A stretch of DNA of 64,000 bases, from the NCBI RefSeq assembly GCF_026712245.1, contig NZ_JAPPUY010000001.1, positions 62,001-126,000 on the forward strand. The letters run 5' to 3'. This stretch comes from Roseateles hydrophilus (lineage in GTDB: Bacteria; Pseudomonadota; Gammaproteobacteria; Burkholderiales; Burkholderiaceae_C). The stretch's first letter is position 1. Every line of letters starts with the position of its first letter. This document shows positions 30,409 to 41,672 of this stretch, piece by piece. The notes beneath the pieces were generated by a model. It was not told the DNA's origin. It saw nothing but the letters and a program-made list of their open reading frames with translations, and ran no database searches. A program made the position numbers and the translations under genes.

Positions 30409-31160
30409 TGGCAGCGAAGGATTTGGAAATCTCTGATCTGCAAACGGCTGGCTGTTGTCCTCAGCGCGAAGTGGCCGTGCAGGCGTGGATTGGCGTCGGC
30501 GCGTGTAAAGAGTTCGTTGCTGTCGGCCCGCCAGCGCAGGTGAACGGGGTCGCTGGCCGTGGGTTGACGCGAAACAATCTCGATGCTGATTGGTTGGCCC
30601 GTTCGCAAGCGGGTCGCGCGCGTCATCGGCTGTTCGCCGGGCTCGACGCCTGCACCGTCGGCGAAGCCCGCCAGCAGCCGGCGCTCGCTGCCGGTGTAGT
30701 GGCGCAGCCGCGTGGTGGTGTTGGCGTTCGCGCCGAAGCCCACGTAGTAGGTGGGCAGCGTGTCGTAGCCAGCGAACTTGCCGGTGCGTGGATAGGGCTC
30801 GCTGCCGTCGGCTTCGAGCGCATTCCAGAACATGTTCAGGTCGGAGATGCGGCCTGCGTGCGGCCCGGCGCTGGCCGGTGCGGGCAGGGCTACGGCCGTG
30901 AAGCTCACGGCGTAGTCGCCAGACAGCGGCTCGCGCCACCACAAGCTCAAGCCTGCAGGTGTGGCGATGTCCAGCACACCGCCTGCGGCAGTGACGACGG
31001 CGCGCGTGTCTTCGGCCTCCAGCCGCCAGCGGGTGAGGCCGGCGTGGAAGTCGTCAGCGGCGACTTGCTCCAGCTTCTTGGGTGCCTCGCACCACGCCGC
31101 TGCAGCCAGCGGCGCGACGAGGATCAGCCCGCAAAGTGGAAGACAGACGGCAGGTCCCAT
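30405..31160 (-). CDS. DUF6250-like exported protein (lectin-like fold suspected)
   Basis: This 251-residue protein has a probable Sec signal peptide (MGPAVCLPLCGLILVAPLAAAA). The mature part has the order of DUF6250 proteins: ISDLNMFWNALEADG, RTGKFAGYDTLPTYYVGFG, NANTTTRLRHYTG, VHLRWRADSNELF and a final RLQIRDFQIL strand. This resembles a concanavalin-like jelly roll. Such genes are found beside pectin-degrading enzymes, and I know of no established activity; carbohydrate binding or a lyase role is speculative. The start at 31160 lies 37 bp inside the mutarotase gene, an unusually long overlap for this operon. Confidence 0.72.
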   Translation of the reverse strand: MGPAVCLPLCGLILVAPLAAAAWCEAPKKLEQVAADDFHAGLTRWRLEAEDTRAVVTAAGGVLDIATPAGLSLWWREPLSGDYAVSFTAVALPAPASAGPHAGRISDLNMFWNALEADGSEPYPRTGKFAGYDTLPTYYVGFGANANTTTRLRHYTGSERRLLAGFADGAGVEPGEQPMTRATRLRTGQPISIEIVSRQPTASDPVHLRWRADSNELFTRADANPRLHGHFALRTTASRLQIRDFQILRCQ

Positions 31161-31468: not shown

Positions 31469-32851
31469 TCAGAGCACGTCCTGCTCGGCCATGCTCAGGG
31501 TGGACACGTCACGGCGCTGTAGCGCGGCGTCGGCCAGGGTGGTGTGGGGCGGCAGGCCGGCGAGCTCACAGCGGGTGCCGACGCGGATGGGGCTGGCCAG
31601 CTGCAGCCGGCAATCGCTGCCGAACTGCCAGCCGCGCACGTCCTGCACATGGCCGCCGCGGCGGGCCTGGATGTCGAGCGCGTTGAACTCGAAGTCGCGC
31701 AGCGGCACTTCGTCGGTGGCGTCCACCTCGAAGGCCACGTCCGCGCCCTGCGCGCTGAGTCGGGTGAGTCGCACGCCCTCGACACGGGTGCGGCCTTGTT
31801 CGGCCGAAACCGGTGCGGCCAGCGTGTGCCAGTGGGGCGGGGCGTGTGCTGCCTCGGCCTCGGGCAGCGTGGCGCGGCTGTAGGCGGGGTTCCAGTTCAT
31901 CGTGGCGCGCAGGGCCACGGGCACGTTCAGCAGTTGCAGGTCGGTGATGCGCAGGTCCTGCACGAAGCCGCCGCGTGTGGGCGCGGACTTGAACAGCAGG
32001 CCGACAGGCACCGGGCCGTGCACGGTGATGCGCTCGGCGGTGATGCGGCGGATGCCGCCCGAGGTCTCGCTGCCGAAGGTCAGGCCGGCGGCGCCCTCGC
32101 GGACGACGCAGTCGCTGATGTGGATGTCCTCGCAGACGCGCGCGACACGCAGGCCGTCGGCATCGCGGCCAGCCTTCAGGCACAGCGCGTCGTCGTTGAC
32201 GGCGATGTCGGCATGGCGGATGGTCACGCGGCGCGAGGAGTCGATGTCGATGCCGTCGGTGGACGGGCCGTGCGCGTCCTCGTTGTTACGGATGGTGACG
32301 CCGTCGACAGTGATGTCTTCCGAGTAGCAGAGGTGCAGCGTCCAGAAGCCCGAGCGGCGCAGCAGCAGCCCGCCGCCGATGTGAATGCGCGCGGACTCGA
32401 AGACCTGGATCAGCCGTGGGCGCTGGCAGTCGTAGTCCGAGGCCCAGCGCAGGCCGCGCGGCTCGTAGGTGGCGCGCAGCGCCCAGTAGCTGTCCCAAAA
32501 GACCTGGCCATCACCATCGATGCAGCCCTCGCCGGTCAGGGTGACGTCCTGCTCGCCATAGACGTTGACCAGTGCGGCCGGCCAGCGCATTTCGATGCCG
32601 GCCACGCGGGTGGGCAGCAGCGGGTAATCAGCCAGGTCGCGAGAGCCGAGCAGCGTGGCGCCATGCGCCAGGTGCAGCGTCATGCCGCTCTTCAGGAACA
32701 GCGCGCCTGTCAGGTAGACGCCGGGGCCTAGACGCAACTCCGCGCCCTGCAGAGCCGCCGCATCGATAGCGGCCTGCAGGGCGCGGGTGTTGAGGGTGCA
32801 CCCGTCGCCGCGTGCACCGTAGGCCTGCGCTTGCACGCAAGCCCGCGTCAT
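31469..32851 (-). CDS. GH28 family glycosidase without signal peptide (probably cytoplasmic)
   Basis: This 460-residue protein starts MTRACVQAQAYGARGDG, straight into the GH28 N-terminal strand with no leader. Catalytic Asp motifs are STDGIDIDSS and VNDDALCLKAG. The GHG position reads GAAGLTFGSET, and LLFKSAPTRGG replaces RIK. It is placed between L-rhamnose isomerase and mutarotase, so hydrolysis of imported rhamnogalacturonan oligomers is plausible, but the exact bond is unknown. Its ATG shares one base with the isomerase stop (TGATG). Confidence 0.87.
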   Translation of the reverse strand: MTRACVQAQAYGARGDGCTLNTRALQAAIDAAALQGAELRLGPGVYLTGALFLKSGMTLHLAHGATLLGSRDLADYPLLPTRVAGIEMRWPAALVNVYGEQDVTLTGEGCIDGDGQVFWDSYWALRATYEPRGLRWASDYDCQRPRLIQVFESARIHIGGGLLLRRSGFWTLHLCYSEDITVDGVTIRNNEDAHGPSTDGIDIDSSRRVTIRHADIAVNDDALCLKAGRDADGLRVARVCEDIHISDCVVREGAAGLTFGSETSGGIRRITAERITVHGPVPVGLLFKSAPTRGGFVQDLRITDLQLLNVPVALRATMNWNPAYSRATLPEAEAAHAPPHWHTLAAPVSAEQGRTRVEGVRLTRLSAQGADVAFEVDATDEVPLRDFEFNALDIQARRGGHVQDVRGWQFGSDCRLQLASPIRVGTRCELAGLPPHTTLADAALQRRDVSTLSMAEQDVL

Positions 32852-34149
32852 CAGACGATGCCGGAGCCGCTGGCGCCAGCCTTGGGCGGACGCTTGACGG
32901 CGACCTGCTCGCGATAGCCGGCAGCGCGGTAGGCCGCCACCGGGTCGATCGCGCCGCCCGAGCGCAGGCGGGCCATCGCGAGGATGGGGCTCACGTCGGT
33001 GCGGAAGGCCTTCTTCAGTGTCTGCGCTGCTTGCAGCACGTCGTTGGATTCCTGGAAGCCGGCAAGGGCAACGCGGTCCACCATCGACGCCTGCACGAAG
33101 GCGCGCTGCACTTCGACGGCGCTGCTCATCAGGCTCTCGATCGGATCGGTCACGTTGTGCGACTGGTCCAGCATGTACGACGGGTTGAAGCCGGCGCCGT
33201 CACGGGCTTGCGAGTCCGCCAGCTCGTTGAAGATCAGGAACAGCTGGAACGGGTCGATGGAACCCGAGTCCAGGTCGTCGTCGCCGTACTTGCTGTCGTT
33301 GAAGTGGAAGCCACCGAGCTTGCCGAACTGCGCCAGGCGCGCCACGATCATCTCGATGTTGGTGTTGGGCGCGTGGTGGCCCAGGTCCACCAGGCACTTC
33401 GCCTTGGGGCCCAAGGTCTGCGCGACGGCAAAGCTGGTGCCCCAGTCGGCGATGACGGAGCAGTAGAACGCCGGCTCGAACAGCTTGTGCTCGATGTACA
33501 TCTGCCAGTCGTCCGGCAGGGCGGCGTAGATGCCGCGGGCAGAGTCGATGTAGCGCTCCAGCGCACCGCGCAGGTTGCTCTGGCCGGGGAAGTTGGCGCC
33601 GTCGCCCACCCACACCGTCAGGCCCTTGGAGCCCAGCGTCTTGCCCAGCTCGATGCAGTCGATGTTGTGCTGCACGGCCAGCTCGCGCGAGGCCTTGTTG
33701 GTGCTGGTCAGGCTACCGAACTTGTAGGTGGCGGGCTGGCCGGCCTGGTCCTGGAAGGTGTTGCTGTTGACAGCGTCAAAGCCCAGGCCGAGCTCGTCGG
33801 CCTGCTGGCGCAGGGCCTTGGGGTCAGCGGGCTTGTCCCACGGGAAGTGCAGCGACACGGCCGGTGTGGCGCGGGTCAGCTGGTGGATGACGGCGCAGTC
33901 TTCCAGCTTCTCGGTCACGTCACGCGGCTCGCCCTTGCCGGGGAAGCGCGCAAAGCGCGTGCCGCCGGTGCCTGCGCCCCAGCTGGGCACGGCCACGCCG
34001 AAGGTCTGGGCCTTGGCGGTGAGGGCCTCGATGTCCACGCCGCGGCGCGACAGCATGCCGCCCAGCGCGTCGTAGTCGGCCTGCAGCTCGGCCTTGAGCT
34101 TGGCGTTGTGCTGTTCGACCTGGGCCGCGTCGATGATGTGCTTGGTCAT
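32851..34149 (-). CDS. rhaI: L-rhamnose isomerase (RhaI type)
   Basis: This 432-residue cytoplasmic protein matches the Pseudomonas/Rhizobium-type L-rhamnose isomerase rather than E. coli RhaA. Motifs are VPSWGAGTGGTRFARFPG, VSLHFPWDKP, IELGKTLGSKGLTVWVGDG, metal-binding LVDLGHHAPNTNIE and GGFHFNDSKYGDDDLDSG. It converts L-rhamnose to L-rhamnulose. AGGAGA is 5 nt upstream of the ATG. The gene is second in the operon, 20 bp after the aldolase/dehydrogenase, and shares one base with the GH28 start. Confidence 0.95.
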   Translation of the reverse strand: MTKHIIDAAQVEQHNAKLKAELQADYDALGGMLSRRGVDIEALTAKAQTFGVAVPSWGAGTGGTRFARFPGKGEPRDVTEKLEDCAVIHQLTRATPAVSLHFPWDKPADPKALRQQADELGLGFDAVNSNTFQDQAGQPATYKFGSLTSTNKASRELAVQHNIDCIELGKTLGSKGLTVWVGDGANFPGQSNLRGALERYIDSARGIYAALPDDWQMYIEHKLFEPAFYCSVIADWGTSFAVAQTLGPKAKCLVDLGHHAPNTNIEMIVARLAQFGKLGGFHFNDSKYGDDDLDSGSIDPFQLFLIFNELADSQARDGAGFNPSYMLDQSHNVTDPIESLMSSAVEVQRAFVQASMVDRVALAGFQESNDVLQAAQTLKKAFRTDVSPILAMARLRSGGAIDPVAAYRAAGYREQVAVKRPPKAGASGSGIV

Positions 34150-34169: not shown

Positions 34170-36278
34170 TTATCGCGTGAACGCGGCGGCGTTGCCGGCA
34201 TCCACGTTCAGCACGTTACCCGTGCTCTTGCCGGACTTGTCGCTGGCCAGGAAGTACACGGCTTCCGCGATGTCCTCCGGCAGCACGCTGAGCTTGAGCA
34301 TGCTGCGCTGGCGGTAGAACTCTTCGATGTTGTCGCTGTCGATCTTGTTCGACGCGGCACGCTCTTCCTTCCACTTGCCGTCCCAGATGCGCGAGCCGCG
34401 AATGACGGCGTCGGGGTTGACGACGTTGACGCGCACGCCGACGGCCGCGCCTTCCAGCGCGATGCAGCGGGCCAGGTGGATTTCAGCGGCCTTGGCCGTG
34501 CAGTAGGCCGAGGCGCCGGCAGAGGCAACCAGGCCGTTCTTGCTGGCCACGAACACCATGGAGCCACCGATCTTCTGCTGCTTCATCAGGCGGAAGGCAC
34601 CGCGGCCGACCAGGAAGTAGCCGGTGACCAGGATGTCCTGGTTGCGCTGCCAGATTTCCAGCGTCGTGTCTTCCAGCGGGGCCGCGGAGGCGATGCCGGC
34701 GTTGGAGACGAGGATGTCCAGGCCGCCGAAGCGCAGCGCGGTGGCCGACAGCACGGCCTCCACTTCCTTCTCGGAGGTGATGTTGCCCTGCACGGTGGCG
34801 ACGTTGTCCTTGCCCGCCACCTTGACCAGGTTGGCGTGGGCTTCGGCCAGCGCGCCGGCGTCGATGTCGGTCAGCATGACGCAGGCACCTTCCTGCAGCA
34901 GCTGGCGGGCGACGGCCTGGCCGATGCCACCGGCGCCGCCGGTGACCAGAGCCACGCGGCCGGCCAGGCTCTTGGGCTTGGGCATGCGCTGCAGCTTGGC
35001 TTCTTCGAGCAGCCAGTACTCGATGTCGAAGGCTTCCTGCTCGGGCAGGCCGACGTATTTGTCGACGCCGTTGGCGCCGCGCATCACGTTGATCGCGTTG
35101 ATGTAGAACTCGCCGGCGATGCGGGCGGTGGCCTTGTCCTTGGCGAAGGACAGCATGCCGACGCCGGGGATCAGGTAGATGACGGGGTTGGCGTCACGCA
35201 CGGCCGGGCTGTTGGCGCGCTTGCAGCGCTCGTAGTAGGCCGTGTAGTCGGCGCGGTAGTCTTCCAGCGCCTTGTCCAGGCCGGCCAGCAGCGCGTCGAC
35301 GTCGGGCTTGGCGGGGTCGAAGTCCAGCACCAGCGGGCGGATCTTGGTGCGCAGGAAGTGGTCGGGGCAGGAGGTGCCCAGCGCGGCCAGCGCGGCCAGG
35401 TCGTTGCTGGCGACGAACTGCAGCACGGCGTCGCTGTCGTTGAAGTCGCCCAGCTTGCGCTCGCCGGCGCTGATGCGGCCGCGCAGTGCGGGCATCAGCT
35501 GTGCGGCGATGGCGGCGCGCTGCTCGGCGGGCAGCGTGATGGTCTTGACGCCGCCGAACACCGGCTGCTTGACGTTCTCGCCCAGCCACTGCTCGGCCAG
35601 GCGGATCATCTCCAGCGTGATCTCATAGCAGCTCTTGGCGGTGTCACCCCAGGTGAACAGGCCGTGGCCTTCCAGGATGATGCCCTTGAGCTGCGGCTGC
35701 GAGGTGGCCAGCGCTTCGAGCTTCAGGCCCAGGTCGTAGCCGGGGCGCTGCCAGGGCAGCCAGCCCAGCTGACCGCCGAAGATGACTTCGGTCAGACGCT
35801 TGCTGTCGGCGCAGGCGGCGATGGCGATGATGGCGTCCGGGTGCATGTGGTCCACATGCGCCTTCGGGATGTAGGCGTGCAGCGGGGTGTCGATGCTGGC
35901 GGCGCGCGGGTTCAGGTTGAACGTGCAGTGCGGCAGGTAATCCACCATCTCGTCTTCATGTTCCAGGCCGCGATAACGCTTCTTCAGCGCATTCAGCTTG
36001 TCCATGTAGAGCGTGGAGAAACCATCGAGCTTGATGGAACCCAGGTCGCCGCCCGAGCCCTTGACCCACAGCACCTGCACGTCTTCACCGGTCAGGTGGT
36101 CGCGCATCGTGACCTTGGCCGAGGTATTGCCGCCGCCGAAATTCGTCACGCGCAAATCAGAGCCGAGCAGATTCGAGCGATACAGCAGCAGTTCGGGTTC
36201 GCTCAAGGAGGCCGCCACGGCGTCATCCCACTTGGAGACGATGGGAGTTTGCGCAGAGGTTTGGGAATTTGCAGTCAT
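34170..36278 (-). CDS. rhaEW: Bifunctional rhamnulose-1-phosphate aldolase / L-lactaldehyde dehydrogenase
   Basis: This 702-residue protein is a fusion. Residues 1 to about 430 are a class II aldolase (RVTNFGGGNTSAKV, HVDHMHPDAIIAIAA, LEGHGLFTWGDTA). The last 260 or so are a short-chain dehydrogenase (RVALVTGGAGGIGQ, NAGIASAAP, Ser in VASKNG, catalytic YCTAK). The aldolase splits L-rhamnulose-1-phosphate into DHAP and L-lactaldehyde, and the second domain oxidises the aldehyde to L-lactate. The same fusion is known in Rhizobium, Bacillus and Chloroflexus rhamnose pathways. It is the first gene of the 12-gene operon; the frame is open to 36335, but MTANSQ at 36278 is the family-like start. The leader has two dyads. 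Confidence 0.95.
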   Translation of the reverse strand: MTANSQTSAQTPIVSKWDDAVAASLSEPELLLYRSNLLGSDLRVTNFGGGNTSAKVTMRDHLTGEDVQVLWVKGSGGDLGSIKLDGFSTLYMDKLNALKKRYRGLEHEDEMVDYLPHCTFNLNPRAASIDTPLHAYIPKAHVDHMHPDAIIAIAACADSKRLTEVIFGGQLGWLPWQRPGYDLGLKLEALATSQPQLKGIILEGHGLFTWGDTAKSCYEITLEMIRLAEQWLGENVKQPVFGGVKTITLPAEQRAAIAAQLMPALRGRISAGERKLGDFNDSDAVLQFVASNDLAALAALGTSCPDHFLRTKIRPLVLDFDPAKPDVDALLAGLDKALEDYRADYTAYYERCKRANSPAVRDANPVIYLIPGVGMLSFAKDKATARIAGEFYINAINVMRGANGVDKYVGLPEQEAFDIEYWLLEEAKLQRMPKPKSLAGRVALVTGGAGGIGQAVARQLLQEGACVMLTDIDAGALAEAHANLVKVAGKDNVATVQGNITSEKEVEAVLSATALRFGGLDILVSNAGIASAAPLEDTTLEIWQRNQDILVTGYFLVGRGAFRLMKQQKIGGSMVFVASKNGLVASAGASAYCTAKAAEIHLARCIALEGAAVGVRVNVVNPDAVIRGSRIWDGKWKEERAASNKIDSDNIEEFYRQRSMLKLSVLPEDIAEAVYFLASDKSGKSTGNVLNVDAGNAAAFTR

Positions 36279-36370
36279 CAGCTTGCCTGGTTTCAGTCGT
36301 ATTCGTTGCCCGGGGCTTGTGCGGCGCGCCGGCACCTGTCAGCGACGGGTGATCCATGGTGGAAACGGGC

Positions 36371-36394
36371 CGCAGTGTGAGCCGAAACACTGCG
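36371..36394. promoter_or_regulatory. 8-bp inverted repeat in the rhaEW leader
   Basis: CGCAGTGT (36371-36378) and ACACTGCG (36387-36394) are perfect inverted repeats around an 8-base spacer, 93 bp upstream of the rhaEW start. It could be an operator or an RNA hairpin in the operon leader. No matching protein family is identified. Confidence 0.4.
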
Positions 36395-36460
36395 CCCGGC
36401 GCGGCGCTCCCGCAGGAAATCAAAAGGATGATCGAAAGCGCGCACCGCCGCGGTGCCGCT

Positions 36461-36492
36461 CAAGAAACGCTCATGGCCGTGAGCGTTTCTTG
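36461..36492. promoter_or_regulatory. 13-bp inverted repeat, candidate RhaR operator
   Basis: CAAGAAACGCTCA (36461-36473) and TGAGCGTTTCTTG (36480-36492) form a perfect inverted repeat with a 6-bp spacer in the divergent rhaEW-rhaR intergenic region. It ends two bases before the predicted -35 of the rhaR promoter. Length and position fit a DeoR-family operator; binding by RhaR is inferred. Confidence 0.7.
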
Positions 36493-36493
36493 A

Positions 36494-36522
36494 TTGACGC
36501 TGTCATTCGACTGACGTAATCT
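36494..36522 (+). promoter_or_regulatory. Predicted sigma-70 promoter for the regulator/kinase operon
   Basis: TTGACG (36494-36499) and TAATCT (36517-36522) are separated by exactly 17 bp. Start of transcription would fall near 36529, giving a leader of about 210 nt. The 13-bp inverted repeat abuts the -35, and the direct repeat at 36552 lies just past the start, so operator sites bracket the promoter. Confidence 0.6.
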
Positions 36523-36551
36523 GCTTTCGGAACCGTGTTTCACCTGCGATC

Positions 36552-36567
36552 TGAGCGTTCTTGATTG
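36552..36567 (+). promoter_or_regulatory. Second copy of the candidate RhaR half-site
   Basis: TGAGCGTTCTTGATTG at this position repeats TGAGCGTTTCTTGATTG at 36480-36496 with one T missing. It lies about 20-40 bp downstream of the predicted transcription start, where a repressor could block or loop. Confidence 0.55.
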
Positions 36568-36737
36568 CACTGCAACATGGCGACGGCACCCGGCGGCCTG
36601 CTGCAGGGGTGTGACCCGAGGGGGCGCCAGCGAAGGCGCCGTCCGGCAAAGCGATGCCCACCCCAAGAGGTCGGGCAACTCCCGAGAGACAACGGTCGCC
36701 GCCGCTGCAGGAGGGCGCCCGAGAACAAGGTGACTCC

Positions 36738-37619
36738 ATGATCAATCACAAACGGCACAAGCGTCTGCTCAAACTGCTGGACGAGCGTGAGCACGCCAGC
36801 GTTCAGCAATTGATGGAATGGTTGTCGGCATCGGCCGCAACCGTGCGCCGGGATATTTCCTGGCTGGCCGCGAAAAACCAGCTGACGCGCACGCGCGGTG
36901 GCGCTCAGCGCCTGGAGCAAAAGAAAAAGGCCTATACGCTGTCGAGCGAGACCTTTCAAAACAACGCGCAGCAACATACTGCGGCCAAACGTGCCATTGC
37001 CCGTTATGCCACCTCGATGTGCAATAACGGCGAAACCATCATCATCAACGGCGGTACCACCACGTTCATGATGGCGGAGTTTCTCGTCGAGAAACAGCTG
37101 AAGATTCTGACCAATTCGTTCCTGATGGCCGAGCGCCTGCTCGTCACCAGTGACAACGAGATCATCCTGCCCGGCGGCCGCGTCTACCGCGAGCAGAACG
37201 TCATCCTGAGCCCGTTCGAGAACGATGTGGCCCAGCACCACTACGCGGCCAAGATGTTCATGGGCGTCTACGGCCTGTCCATCCTGGGTCTGATGGAGGC
37301 CGACCCGCTGCTGATCCAGGCCGAGAAGCGCCTCATCGGCCAGGCGGAGGAGCTCGTCGTGCTGGTGGACAGCAGCAAGTTCCAGCGCAAGGCGGGCCTG
37401 GTGCTGTGCGGGCTGAACCGCGTGTCCACCGTCATCACCGACACCGGCGCCTCTGACAGCGCGGTGCAGCTGCTGGAGCACTACGGCGTGCGCGTGATCA
37501 CCGTGGAGCCGGAACCCGTGGACCCTCGCGTGGTGGAGGCTTCGGCGATGAGTTCGCATGACTATGCGGCCGTGCTGGAGTCGGGCGCTTACCACCGTCA
37601 CGCGGGGCTGAACTCTTGA
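36738..37619 (+). CDS. rhaR: DeoR-family transcriptional regulator of rhamnose use
   Basis: This 293-residue protein has an N-terminal winged helix (about 5-60: RHKRLLKLLDEREHASVQQLM, SAATVRRDISWLA) and the DeoR effector domain (about 75-260: KRAIARYATSM, TTTFMMAEFLVEKQLKILTNS, GGRVYREQNVILSP, KMFMGVYG, LVDSSKF). DeoR regulators usually repress sugar operons and are released by a phosphorylated sugar, here possibly L-rhamnulose-1-phosphate. The ATG at 36738 has AAGG 7 nt upstream; the longer open frame from 36654 adds a low-complexity leader and is unlikely. It is divergent from rhaEW and overlaps the kinase gene by TTGA. Confidence 0.92.
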   Translation: MINHKRHKRLLKLLDEREHASVQQLMEWLSASAATVRRDISWLAAKNQLTRTRGGAQRLEQKKKAYTLSSETFQNNAQQHTAAKRAIARYATSMCNNGETIIINGGTTTFMMAEFLVEKQLKILTNSFLMAERLLVTSDNEIILPGGRVYREQNVILSPFENDVAQHHYAAKMFMGVYGLSILGLMEADPLLIQAEKRLIGQAEELVVLVDSSKFQRKAGLVLCGLNRVSTVITDTGASDSAVQLLEHYGVRVITVEPEPVDPRVVEASAMSSHDYAAVLESGAYHRHAGLNS

Positions 37620-38998
37620 GCGCTTTGTCTCCCGGAACCGTTGTTCTCGACATTGGCAAGACCAACGCGAAGCTGACCCTGATCGACGCCGACGGCCACA
37701 CGCTGGCCGAGGTGCGCACGCCCAACACGGTGCGCAACCTGGGCCCCTACCCGCACCACGACACGGAGCGGCTGTGGGCCTGGATGCTGGGTCAGCTGCG
37801 TGAGCTGTCGCAGCGGGCGCACATCCGTGCCATCGTGCCGGTCACGCATGGCGCGACGGCGGCGCTGGTGGATGACGCCGGCCTGGTGTTGCCGGTGCTG
37901 GACTACGAGCATGTGCCCGGCGACGCCGCCGACGCGTCGCGTTATGCCGGGCTGCGGCCGGTGTTCGCCGACAGCGGATCGCCCGCGCTGCCGGCCGGCC
38001 TCAACCTTGGCCGCCAGCTGGACTGGCTGGCTGCGCGCTTCCCGGCCGAGTTCGCACGGGCCAAACATGTGCTGATGTACCCGCAGTACTGGGCCTGGCG
38101 CCTGTGCGGCGTGGCGGCCAGCGAGGTCACCTCGCTGGGTTGCCACACCGATCTGTGGCGGCCCGCCGTGGGGCGCTTCTCCAGCCTCGTCGAGCGGCTG
38201 GGCTGGGAGCCGCTGTTCCCGCCGCGCCGCGACGCCTGGGCGCGCTTGGGCGTGCTGCGGCCAGAACTGACGGCCGATACGGGCCTGCCCGCCGACTGCG
38301 AGGTCGTCTGCGGCATCCACGACAGCAATGCCTCGCTGCTGCGCCACCTGCTGACACTCAAACAGAGCGGCCCTTGCACGGTACTGTCCACGGGCACGTG
38401 GCTGATTGCCGCGGCGCTGGGCTCGGCCACCAAGCCGCTGGTCGAGGCGCAGGACATGCTCGCCAACTGCGATGTCTTCGGTGAGGCCGTGCCCTGCATG
38501 CGCTTCATGGGCGGCCGTGAGTTTGGTGCACTCGCAGGCGAGCGACCGGCGCCGTTCACGGCGGCGGATGTCGAGCGCCTGATCGGGCAGCAGACGATGG
38601 CGCTGCCGTGCTTTGCCGAAACCGGCGGGCCGTTCGCTGGTCAGGCTGGTCGTGTGGCCGGGCCCATGCCGCAGAGCGATGCCGAGCGCGCCGCGCTGGC
38701 CACGCTCTACGTCGTGCTGATGACCGATCACTGCCTGCAGGCGCTGGGTGCCAGCGGCCGCGTGGTCGTGGAAGGGGCGTTCACGGTCAACCCGTGGTTC
38801 GGCCCGTTGCTGGCCGGGTTGGCGGATGGGCGCGACGTGGCGGTGTCCGACGACGGCAGTGGCACGACCTGCGGTGCCTGGCTGCTGGCGGCCTGGGGCC
38901 GCGAGGCTGCGCCGGCGCCCGCGCCGGTGGCGGCGTGGTGCCCGCCGGGGTGGCTGGCCTACCGCGATCTGTGGCGCCAGCAGGCGGGCGCGCAGTGA
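37616..38998 (+). CDS. rhaB: FGGY-family rhamnulokinase
   Basis: This 460-residue cytoplasmic kinase has the FGGY/actin-fold motifs TVVLDIGKTNAKLTL (phosphate 1), VTHGATAALVDD, KHVLMYPQYWAWRLCG, CGIHDSNASLLRHL and STGTWLIAAALG, with the C-terminal GAFTVNPWFGPLLAGL. It phosphorylates L-rhamnulose to the 1-phosphate used by the aldolase. No ATG lies before the first strand. The start is TTG at 37616, overlapping the regulator stop (TTGA), or TTG at 37625. It is co-transcribed with rhaR and followed by a strong terminator. Confidence 0.88.
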   Translation: MSALSPGTVVLDIGKTNAKLTLIDADGHTLAEVRTPNTVRNLGPYPHHDTERLWAWMLGQLRELSQRAHIRAIVPVTHGATAALVDDAGLVLPVLDYEHVPGDAADASRYAGLRPVFADSGSPALPAGLNLGRQLDWLAARFPAEFARAKHVLMYPQYWAWRLCGVAASEVTSLGCHTDLWRPAVGRFSSLVERLGWEPLFPPRRDAWARLGVLRPELTADTGLPADCEVVCGIHDSNASLLRHLLTLKQSGPCTVLSTGTWLIAAALGSATKPLVEAQDMLANCDVFGEAVPCMRFMGGREFGALAGERPAPFTAADVERLIGQQTMALPCFAETGGPFAGQAGRVAGPMPQSDAERAALATLYVVLMTDHCLQALGASGRVVVEGAFTVNPWFGPLLAGLADGRDVAVSDDGSGTTCGAWLLAAWGREAAPAPAPVAAWCPPGWLAYRDLWRQQAGAQ

Positions 38999-39020: not shown

Positions 39021-39052
39021 AAAGGGCCGGCCTCGCAAGAGGCCGGCCCTTT
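39021..39052. terminator. Strong bidirectional terminator between rhaB and the PEP-CTERM gene
   Basis: A 14-bp perfect stem (39021-39034 with 39039-39052) closes a GCAA tetraloop, with A and T runs on its two flanks. It serves the converging rhaB and PEP-CTERM transcripts. Its core is identical to the terminator at 3919-3943. Confidence 0.88.
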
Positions 39053-41575: not shown

Positions 41576-41672
41576 GAAGTCTCCTGGTTTGTGTCGTTGT
41601 TCACGCGACAGGCTGTTCGCCTGTCCGTGGCGGCGGACTCTAGGGAGACATGGCAGCGCCGTGCGGTCAACC

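Follow-up and report, generated by a model that had tools for sequence, protein, structure and literature searches.

The DeoR-family repressors DeoR and GlpR of Escherichia coli use several spaced operators, and DNA looping is known for DeoR. The locus described here also has several spaced operators, but the half-sites of DeoR and GlpR differ in sequence from its TGAKYG hexamer, and the operators of DeoR lie hundreds of base pairs apart, against 51 bp here. In Rhizobium and Sinorhizobium, the RhaR of the divergent rhaDI - rhaRSTPQUK locus is a homologue of the regulator studied here, with 44-53% identity over 80% of the query among the Rhizobiaceae matches listed. As in our locus, rhaEW is divergent from rhaR and the hexamer is TGATTG or TGATCG, which in the rhizobial locus lies beside both -35 elements. 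However, the rhizobial hexamers are placed head-to-tail at 10 bp (the 6-bp dyad occurs in 0/42 non-Burkholderiales loci) whereas here they form an inverted dyad, and rhaR is followed there by ABC-transporter genes and here by a kinase gene. This DeoR-type RhaR is a negative regulator of the rha locus in R. leguminosarum (PMC9025865), in an article whose available part does not contain the word operator. Rodionova et al. (2013; PMC3870299, available part) reported DeoR-type RhaR motifs in four groups, which they called non-orthologous, all of them tandem with repeats of 10-11 bp; in Chloroflexus there are four TCGAAA sites in tandem and the inducer shown was L-rhamnulose. The word stem Burkholder is absent from the main text of that article as available. 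These operators are like ours in serving a local rha repressor and in having direct repeats at 10-11 bp (here, 11-bp pairs in 65/83 loci and a 10-bp pair at 36552-36567), but their overall tandem symmetry differs from the 6-bp inverted dyad of 78/83 Burkholderiales loci (PMC3870299, same part). Among the matches listed, no title or abstract start mentioned a RhaR operator of Burkholderiales; RegPrecise and subscription journals were outside the scope of this search, and an earlier description may exist there.

As judged from sequence comparison, the repeats at rhaR are very probably landing sites of RhaR, kept in relatives and arranged as mirror images where related repressors have same-direction rows. 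Evolution thus appears to have rewired this rhamnose switch. This gives a specific, searchable candidate operator for rhamnose catabolism in Burkholderiales.

The rhaR gene and its promoter region

The features of the locus are listed in Table 1, with positions in the window, i.e., the whole 64,000-nucleotide stretch of Roseateles hydrophilus DNA that was analysed. The product of rhaR matches PF08220 (5e-15) and PF00455 (1e-38), both above the cut-off, and has a DeoR-type helix-turn-helix and a DeoRC sensor. None of the NCBIfam equivalog models reached its cut-off for this protein (the best was UlaR, with 195 of 244 bits), nor for the kinase. The gene lies between the sugar kinase gene and rhaEW-rhaI and is divergent from rhaEW, which agrees with the original prediction of a DeoR-type gene divergent from a catabolic operon. 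The GH28 gene is probably in one operon with rhaI. Since the neighbourhood also includes rhamnogalacturonan lyase, arabinofuranosidase, GDSL esterase, and MFS genes, we describe it as a pectin and rhamnose locus.

Table 1. Positions of genes, promoter elements, and candidate operator sites in the window
Feature	Position	Strand	Description
GH28 glycosidase	31469-32851	-	PF00295; one base in common with rhaI
rhaI	32851-34149	-	L-rhamnose catabolism isomerase; TIGR02629 above cut-off
rhaEW	34170-36278	-	bifunctional rhamnulose-1-phosphate aldolase / short-chain dehydrogenase; NF006189 and TIGR02632 above cut-off
O2, second dyad	36417-36434	.	AAATCA-AAAGGA-TGATCG; second best dyad score in the window
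O1, candidate main operator	36457-36496	.	CGCTCA-5-CGCTCA-6-TGAGCG-5-TGATTG; four half-sites, spacings 5, 6, 5
O1 half-site 1	36457-36462	-	
O1 half-site 2	36468-36473	-	
O1 half-site 3	36480-36485	+	
O1 half-site 4	36491-36496	+	
rhaR -35	36494-36499	+	TTGACG; shares bases with the last O1 half-site; aligns in 13/13 genus genomes
rhaR -10	36517-36522	+	TAATCT; 17 bp from the -35; 3/6 match to TATAAT
Third site	36552-36567	+	TGAGCGTTCTTGATTG; TGAGCG-4-TGATTG in tandem with a period of 10 bp, beyond the expected start
rhaR	36738-37619	+	DeoR-type regulator; start ATG at 36738
Sugar kinase, likely rhaK	37616-38998	+	FGGY family; 4-base overlap with the end of rhaR

The perfect 13-bp inverted repeat from which this work started is present (CAAGAAACGCTCA at 36461-36473 and TGAGCGTTTCTTG at 36480-36492, with a 6-bp spacer). 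Its perfect arms reach 14 bp (36460-36493) and, counting the spacer, the repeat extends to 17 bp at 94% complementarity. It is one of 12 inverted repeats listed for the window at a length of at least 13 bp with arms at most 60 bp apart. The other perfect 14-bp repeat among them (39021-39052) has A and T flanks, separates the kinase gene from a convergent gene, and looks like a two-way terminator. An exact search for a single O1 arm gives 2 matches in the 64 kb, both of them the arms of O1, and a search allowing up to 3 mismatches gives 4 against 2.2 expected, which is near the chance level; it is the pairing of the arms that stands out. The whole 13-bp arm had been counted as a half-site. Yet the conserved part is the hexamer TGAKYG (TGATTG or TGATCG in most relatives), and a recognition unit of 13-14 bp was rejected, as the stretch separating the half-sites varies among relatives. 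From these comparisons, the predicted recognition unit of RhaR is the hexamer. The count of three half-sites given at first was too low, since it overlooked the outermost half-site of O1 and the O2 dyad. The latter appears in the alignment of the genus as a second block, AAATCAAAAGGATGAKCG, a dyad with the same half-site as O1. Another dyad in the window, at 41664, has a score of 12.1 and does not surpass a chance site at 30575.

The last half-site of O1 overlaps the -35 element of rhaR. The hexamers and the 17-bp spacing announced for this promoter are present and align in all 13 relatives, own genome included (the -10 is once TAGTCT), but calling the promoter good was too strong given the 3/6 match of its -10, and a consensus promoter scan of the window did not list it. 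The third copy of the arm, one T short, is where it had been placed, but is conserved only partially: the strict tandem pair occurs in 8/13 Roseateles.

Three other blocks of the gap are specific to Roseateles, where their patterns occur in 13/13 loci against 0/65 others. The first, at the expected rhaR start site (36529-36543, GGAACCGTGTTTCAC), could conceal an additional weak half-site. The second (GAGACAACGGTCGCC, 36686-36700; pattern GAGACAACGG) is in the rhaR leader and had no match in an Rfam search. The third (36369-36388), GCCGCAGTGTG...CGAAAC with a GCAGTGTG-type core, lies between O2 and rhaEW and is possibly the Roseateles promoter or leader of rhaEW.

Conservation in Roseateles and in other Burkholderiales

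We compared 20 genomes of the genus, of which 13, own included, have a RhaR at at least 91% identity. Among named organisms, the closest ones belong to Roseateles and Pelomonas, and Roseateles in the counts of 13 loci stands for the window, L061-L071, and L076. It had been stated that the operator reading would be refuted if relatives with an unchanged gene order lacked the arms; we searched for such a loss and found instead that the half-sites of both arms align in 13/13 rhaR genomes. The right arm is altered past its half-site in one genome (L011/G007), which is the exception when paired arms are sought at rhaR with up to 2 mismatches (12/13). Away from rhaR, paired arms were found at 2 mismatches once each in G000, G008, and G011, the last of which lacks rhaR, and a reversed-pattern control gave one match (in G015). 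The genes rhaR and rhaEW are found together in the 13 genomes; G014 carries a part of rhaEW and lacks a close rhaR. Because the two genes co-occur, their co-occurrence cannot separate RhaR from another factor acting at these promoters.

Homologues as close as these are rare in the order (3/399 genomes at 1e-40, own included). Of the named Burkholderiales loci (the best 80 of 100), 77 have rhaEW divergent from rhaR, as does the window. The resulting 78 gaps (of 81) leave out L138-L140, which lack a divergent rhaEW and are counted in the 83-locus comparison below. These gaps contain 450 TGAKYG half-sites, against 39 in one block shuffle. The half-sites form 49 inverted pairs at 6 bp and 61 direct pairs at 5 bp, whereas 50 block shuffles give means of 0.0 for both. 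The patterns (TGA[GT][CT]G for this count, TGA[GT][CT][GA] for the comparison of 83 with 42 loci) were drawn from these very loci, which makes the enrichment of the hexamer partly circular, but not that of its orientation and spacing; the shuffles and the Fisher tests ignore shared ancestry. When 70 loci are aligned, conservation is 93-97% in the TGA core of the dyad half-sites and 59-81% at their outer positions, and most spacer columns are near background. Eight loci lacked the anchor of this alignment and four were out of register (L061, L064, L104, and L134), the first three of which were re-anchored in the analysis with the symmetric score.

That score gave 221 matches in the 78 gaps, compared with 3.25 in mononucleotide shuffles, with dyads at position 0 in 76 gaps; 63 gaps have one at -51 and 47 have one at -78. 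Anchor and score were both derived from O1 sites, so the frequency at position 0 follows by construction, and the independent result is given by the peaks at -51 and -78. The first of these is O2: its distance from the O1 dyad is exactly 51 bp in 63/78 Burkholderiales loci (63/76 once L133 and L134, also dropped from the module comparison, are removed) and in 13/13 Roseateles. Roseateles differs strongly from the remaining loci in the DNA separating O2 from O1, where identity is just 34%. A constant spacing with diverged intervening sequence speaks against chance or a neutral relic.

After the O1 dyad comes a half-site that reads TGATTGAC (63 of 76 loci), CGATTGAC (10), TTGTTGAC (2), or TGATTGAT (1), its -35-like ending TTGA(C/T) being built into the anchor pattern. 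The dyad at -78 or -77 is found in 49 loci, all within L077-L136 (Massilia, Duganella, and kin), where the module formed by a dyad, 8 bp, and TTGAC is mirrored at rhaEW, with GTCAA at one distance in 49/49. A TTGAC-TYTWCT-like pair facing rhaEW was present in 60/63 non-Roseateles loci (by a loose pattern, used without a chance control), and a rhaEW promoter of this type in 0/13 Roseateles. The fourth, left outer half-site of O1 shows the opposite distribution, with 13/13 Roseateles against 0/63 other loci.

A pattern of three half-sites, with at most one mismatch, had 22 matches in 13 Burkholderiales genomes and none in the control. Seventeen of the 22 read as rhaR loci, with at least one in every genome, and 5 lie elsewhere. 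The 6-bp dyad is also present at L229, which is from another family of Burkholderiales and has a RhaR that is 62% identical. By the pattern used, it is missing from 5 of the 83 loci (L074, L133, and L138-L140). In the last three, from Rubrivivax rivuli and two relatives, rhaR adjoins a GH28-like gene (by sequence reading) and not rhaEW, and the region upstream of rhaR has TGAGCG and TGATTG 22 bp apart.

Proposed regulation by RhaR and alternative explanations

These comparisons support the probable RhaR operator array of the original prediction, with its anatomy redrawn, and we consider it highly likely that O1 and O2 are operators of the DeoR-type repressor RhaR. The sequence itself shows the half-sites, their spacings, their conservation, and the overlap with the promoter; the following mechanism is inferred, including RhaR as the binder, the operons, and the position of the rhaEW promoter. 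Each RhaR subunit would read one TGAKYG hexamer, a dimer would sit on the 6-bp-spaced dyad of O1, and more subunits would be added head-to-tail 11 bp outward on each side. As the last half-site reaches the -35, bound RhaR would keep RNA polymerase from transcribing rhaR and the kinase gene, resulting in autorepression. O2, which is 51 bp away (about five helical turns, near the same face), would be occupied jointly with O1, probably through a bridging tetramer, and occupancy of both would block the divergent rhaEW-rhaI-GH28 operon. A rhaEW promoter of the kind seen elsewhere was found in 0/13 Roseateles loci, so the way in which O2 would repress rhaEW is a proposal. Rhamnulose or rhamnulose phosphate would release RhaR: the inducer proposed earlier was L-rhamnulose-1-phosphate, but it may instead be L-rhamnulose, which released the DeoR-type RhaR of another group (PMC3870299, available part).

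A search of the 20 genus genomes with the triple pattern revealed, in 7 of them, a one-mismatch place in the gap that separates a pectate-lyase gene from a phosphoesterase gene. As the third half-site there runs into the start codon of the latter gene, we count only the dyad. This dyad, CGATCA-6-TGAGCG, is about 90 bp upstream of the pectate-lyase gene (PF09492; L193:4114-4131, C8, in the own genome). We found 15 lyase loci in 13 genus genomes, 10 of which have the dyad upstream. Of the 10 best loci in genomes with rhaR, 9 have it (the exception, G012, has a 5-bp spacer). It occurs in one of the three genomes without a close rhaR (in G014, and not in G019 or G011) and at neither of the two second lyase copies. 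The rha locus of G014 may have been cut by the assembly, as part of rhaEW is present. This site has no linkage to either the rhaEW or the rhaR promoter, so it is fresh support for reading the dyads as RhaR operators and slightly raises our confidence in that reading. It also suggests that the distant pectate-lyase gene could belong to the RhaR regulon, which provides a candidate link from the rhamnose operator to pectate lyase. At C6:393695 of the own genome, an exact triple match directly precedes a TonB-dependent receptor gene; it was left as chance, none being listed for the other 19 genomes. Duganella sp. OV510 has a second rha cluster, in which a dyad array (L136:742-890) precedes a GH28-like gene (by sequence reading) and contains GCTCACACAGTTGATCG, as found upstream of the Roseateles pectate-lyase gene.

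The lyase dyad would also fit a pectin regulator, and its presence in G014 is in line with the main alternative, in which the sites serve another regulator of the same gap (e.g., a carbon or pectin regulator), RhaR having its own sites at other places. The gap does hold further conserved blocks, the binding of RhaR is read from sequence, and the co-occurrence of rhaR and rhaEW means that the correlation with rhaR is not independent. However, the site of a global regulator would be expected to recur, yet only 5 of the 22 triple matches lie away from rhaR, and the hexamer is also found at rhaR homologues outside Burkholderiales. We thus regard this alternative as unlikely. We give far less credit to the idea that the inverted repeat is an RNA hairpin, either a terminator or a leader structure. 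The arms in the window could pair as a 14-bp stem, and position 6 of the half-sites matches between arms in 45/63 loci, against 30.1, with 0/1000 shuffles as high, although shared ancestry could cause this. Yet outside Roseateles the perfect stem is of 3-4 bp in 53/63 loci, which retain the half-sites, and positions 4 and 5 show no covariation. The repeat also lies upstream of the rhaR -35, hence outside its transcript, the scan gave no terminator-like site, and there was no Rfam family at E up to 1. We rejected the hairpin on the short stems of the relatives and the lack of terminator-like site and Rfam family. That the repeats are chance or a neutral relic of promoter DNA is just as improbable, for all that one arm is near the chance level in 64 kb and the third copy is not strict in 5/13 Roseateles, since half-sites and spacing are held across genera despite the diverged intervening DNA.

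Operator geometry outside Burkholderiales

If the dyads are indeed operators of RhaR, their geometry can be compared with that of more distant loci. The 300 bp upstream of rhaR were compared between 83 Burkholderiales loci (the 80 named ones, best of 100, the window, L200, and L229) and 42 others, i.e., 11 named alphaproteobacterial plasmid records and 31 loci from genomes in the same phylum or class, some of which are distant (34-44% identity) and may not be orthologues. In Alphaproteobacteria, the hexamer is likewise found beside the -35 elements of the rhaEW/rhaR gap. The 6-bp dyad is present in 78/83 Burkholderiales and 0/42 other loci, and the 11-bp tandem in 65/83 and 2/42. In contrast, the 10-bp head-to-tail tandem is present in 11/83 Burkholderiales and 38/42 other loci (38/44 if one counts as misses L197, a Sphingobium where rhaEW is not adjacent, and L232, with one half-site in 330 bp, both omitted from the set). 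This is a natural case where the half-site of a repressor is constant and its orientation and spacing are altered, and hybrid operators, with dyad plus tandem, persist in Roseateles.

The RhaR proteins of both sets have in common the core ATxRRD of the recognition helix. They differ in majority in the N-terminal arm, where MHEKERH becomes MVNHKRRKR in Burkholderiales, and at positions 33, 41, 42, and 44. In a tree of 22 of the 83 Burkholderiales proteins and the 42 others, the groups split at 100/100, but this tree is midpoint-rooted and has long branches. Similarity and synteny are in agreement with a possible common descent of alphaproteobacterial and Burkholderiales RhaR. One scenario, to which we give even chances, is a single switch of the operator grammar, at the base of the RhaR group of Burkholderiales or earlier, in which the hexamer was kept. 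The 10-bp rows would have been replaced by a 6-bp dyad plus a half-site in 11-bp tandem that is tied to the -35, with a mirrored module at the divergent promoter. The switch would go with the rebuilt N-terminal arm, which may set the pairing of subunits, and the dyad would have reached pectin genes as well, which would turn RhaR into a regulator of both pectin and rhamnose use. The step from tandem to dyad is a single observed change, so its tie to the N-terminal arm is a correlation only. The passage of a repressor between tandem and palindromic operators becomes testable with few proteins and short DNAs. The two sets also differ in the length of RhaR, which is of 280-309 residues in 73/83 Burkholderiales and of 250-279 in the 42 others, the difference being a C-terminal extension.
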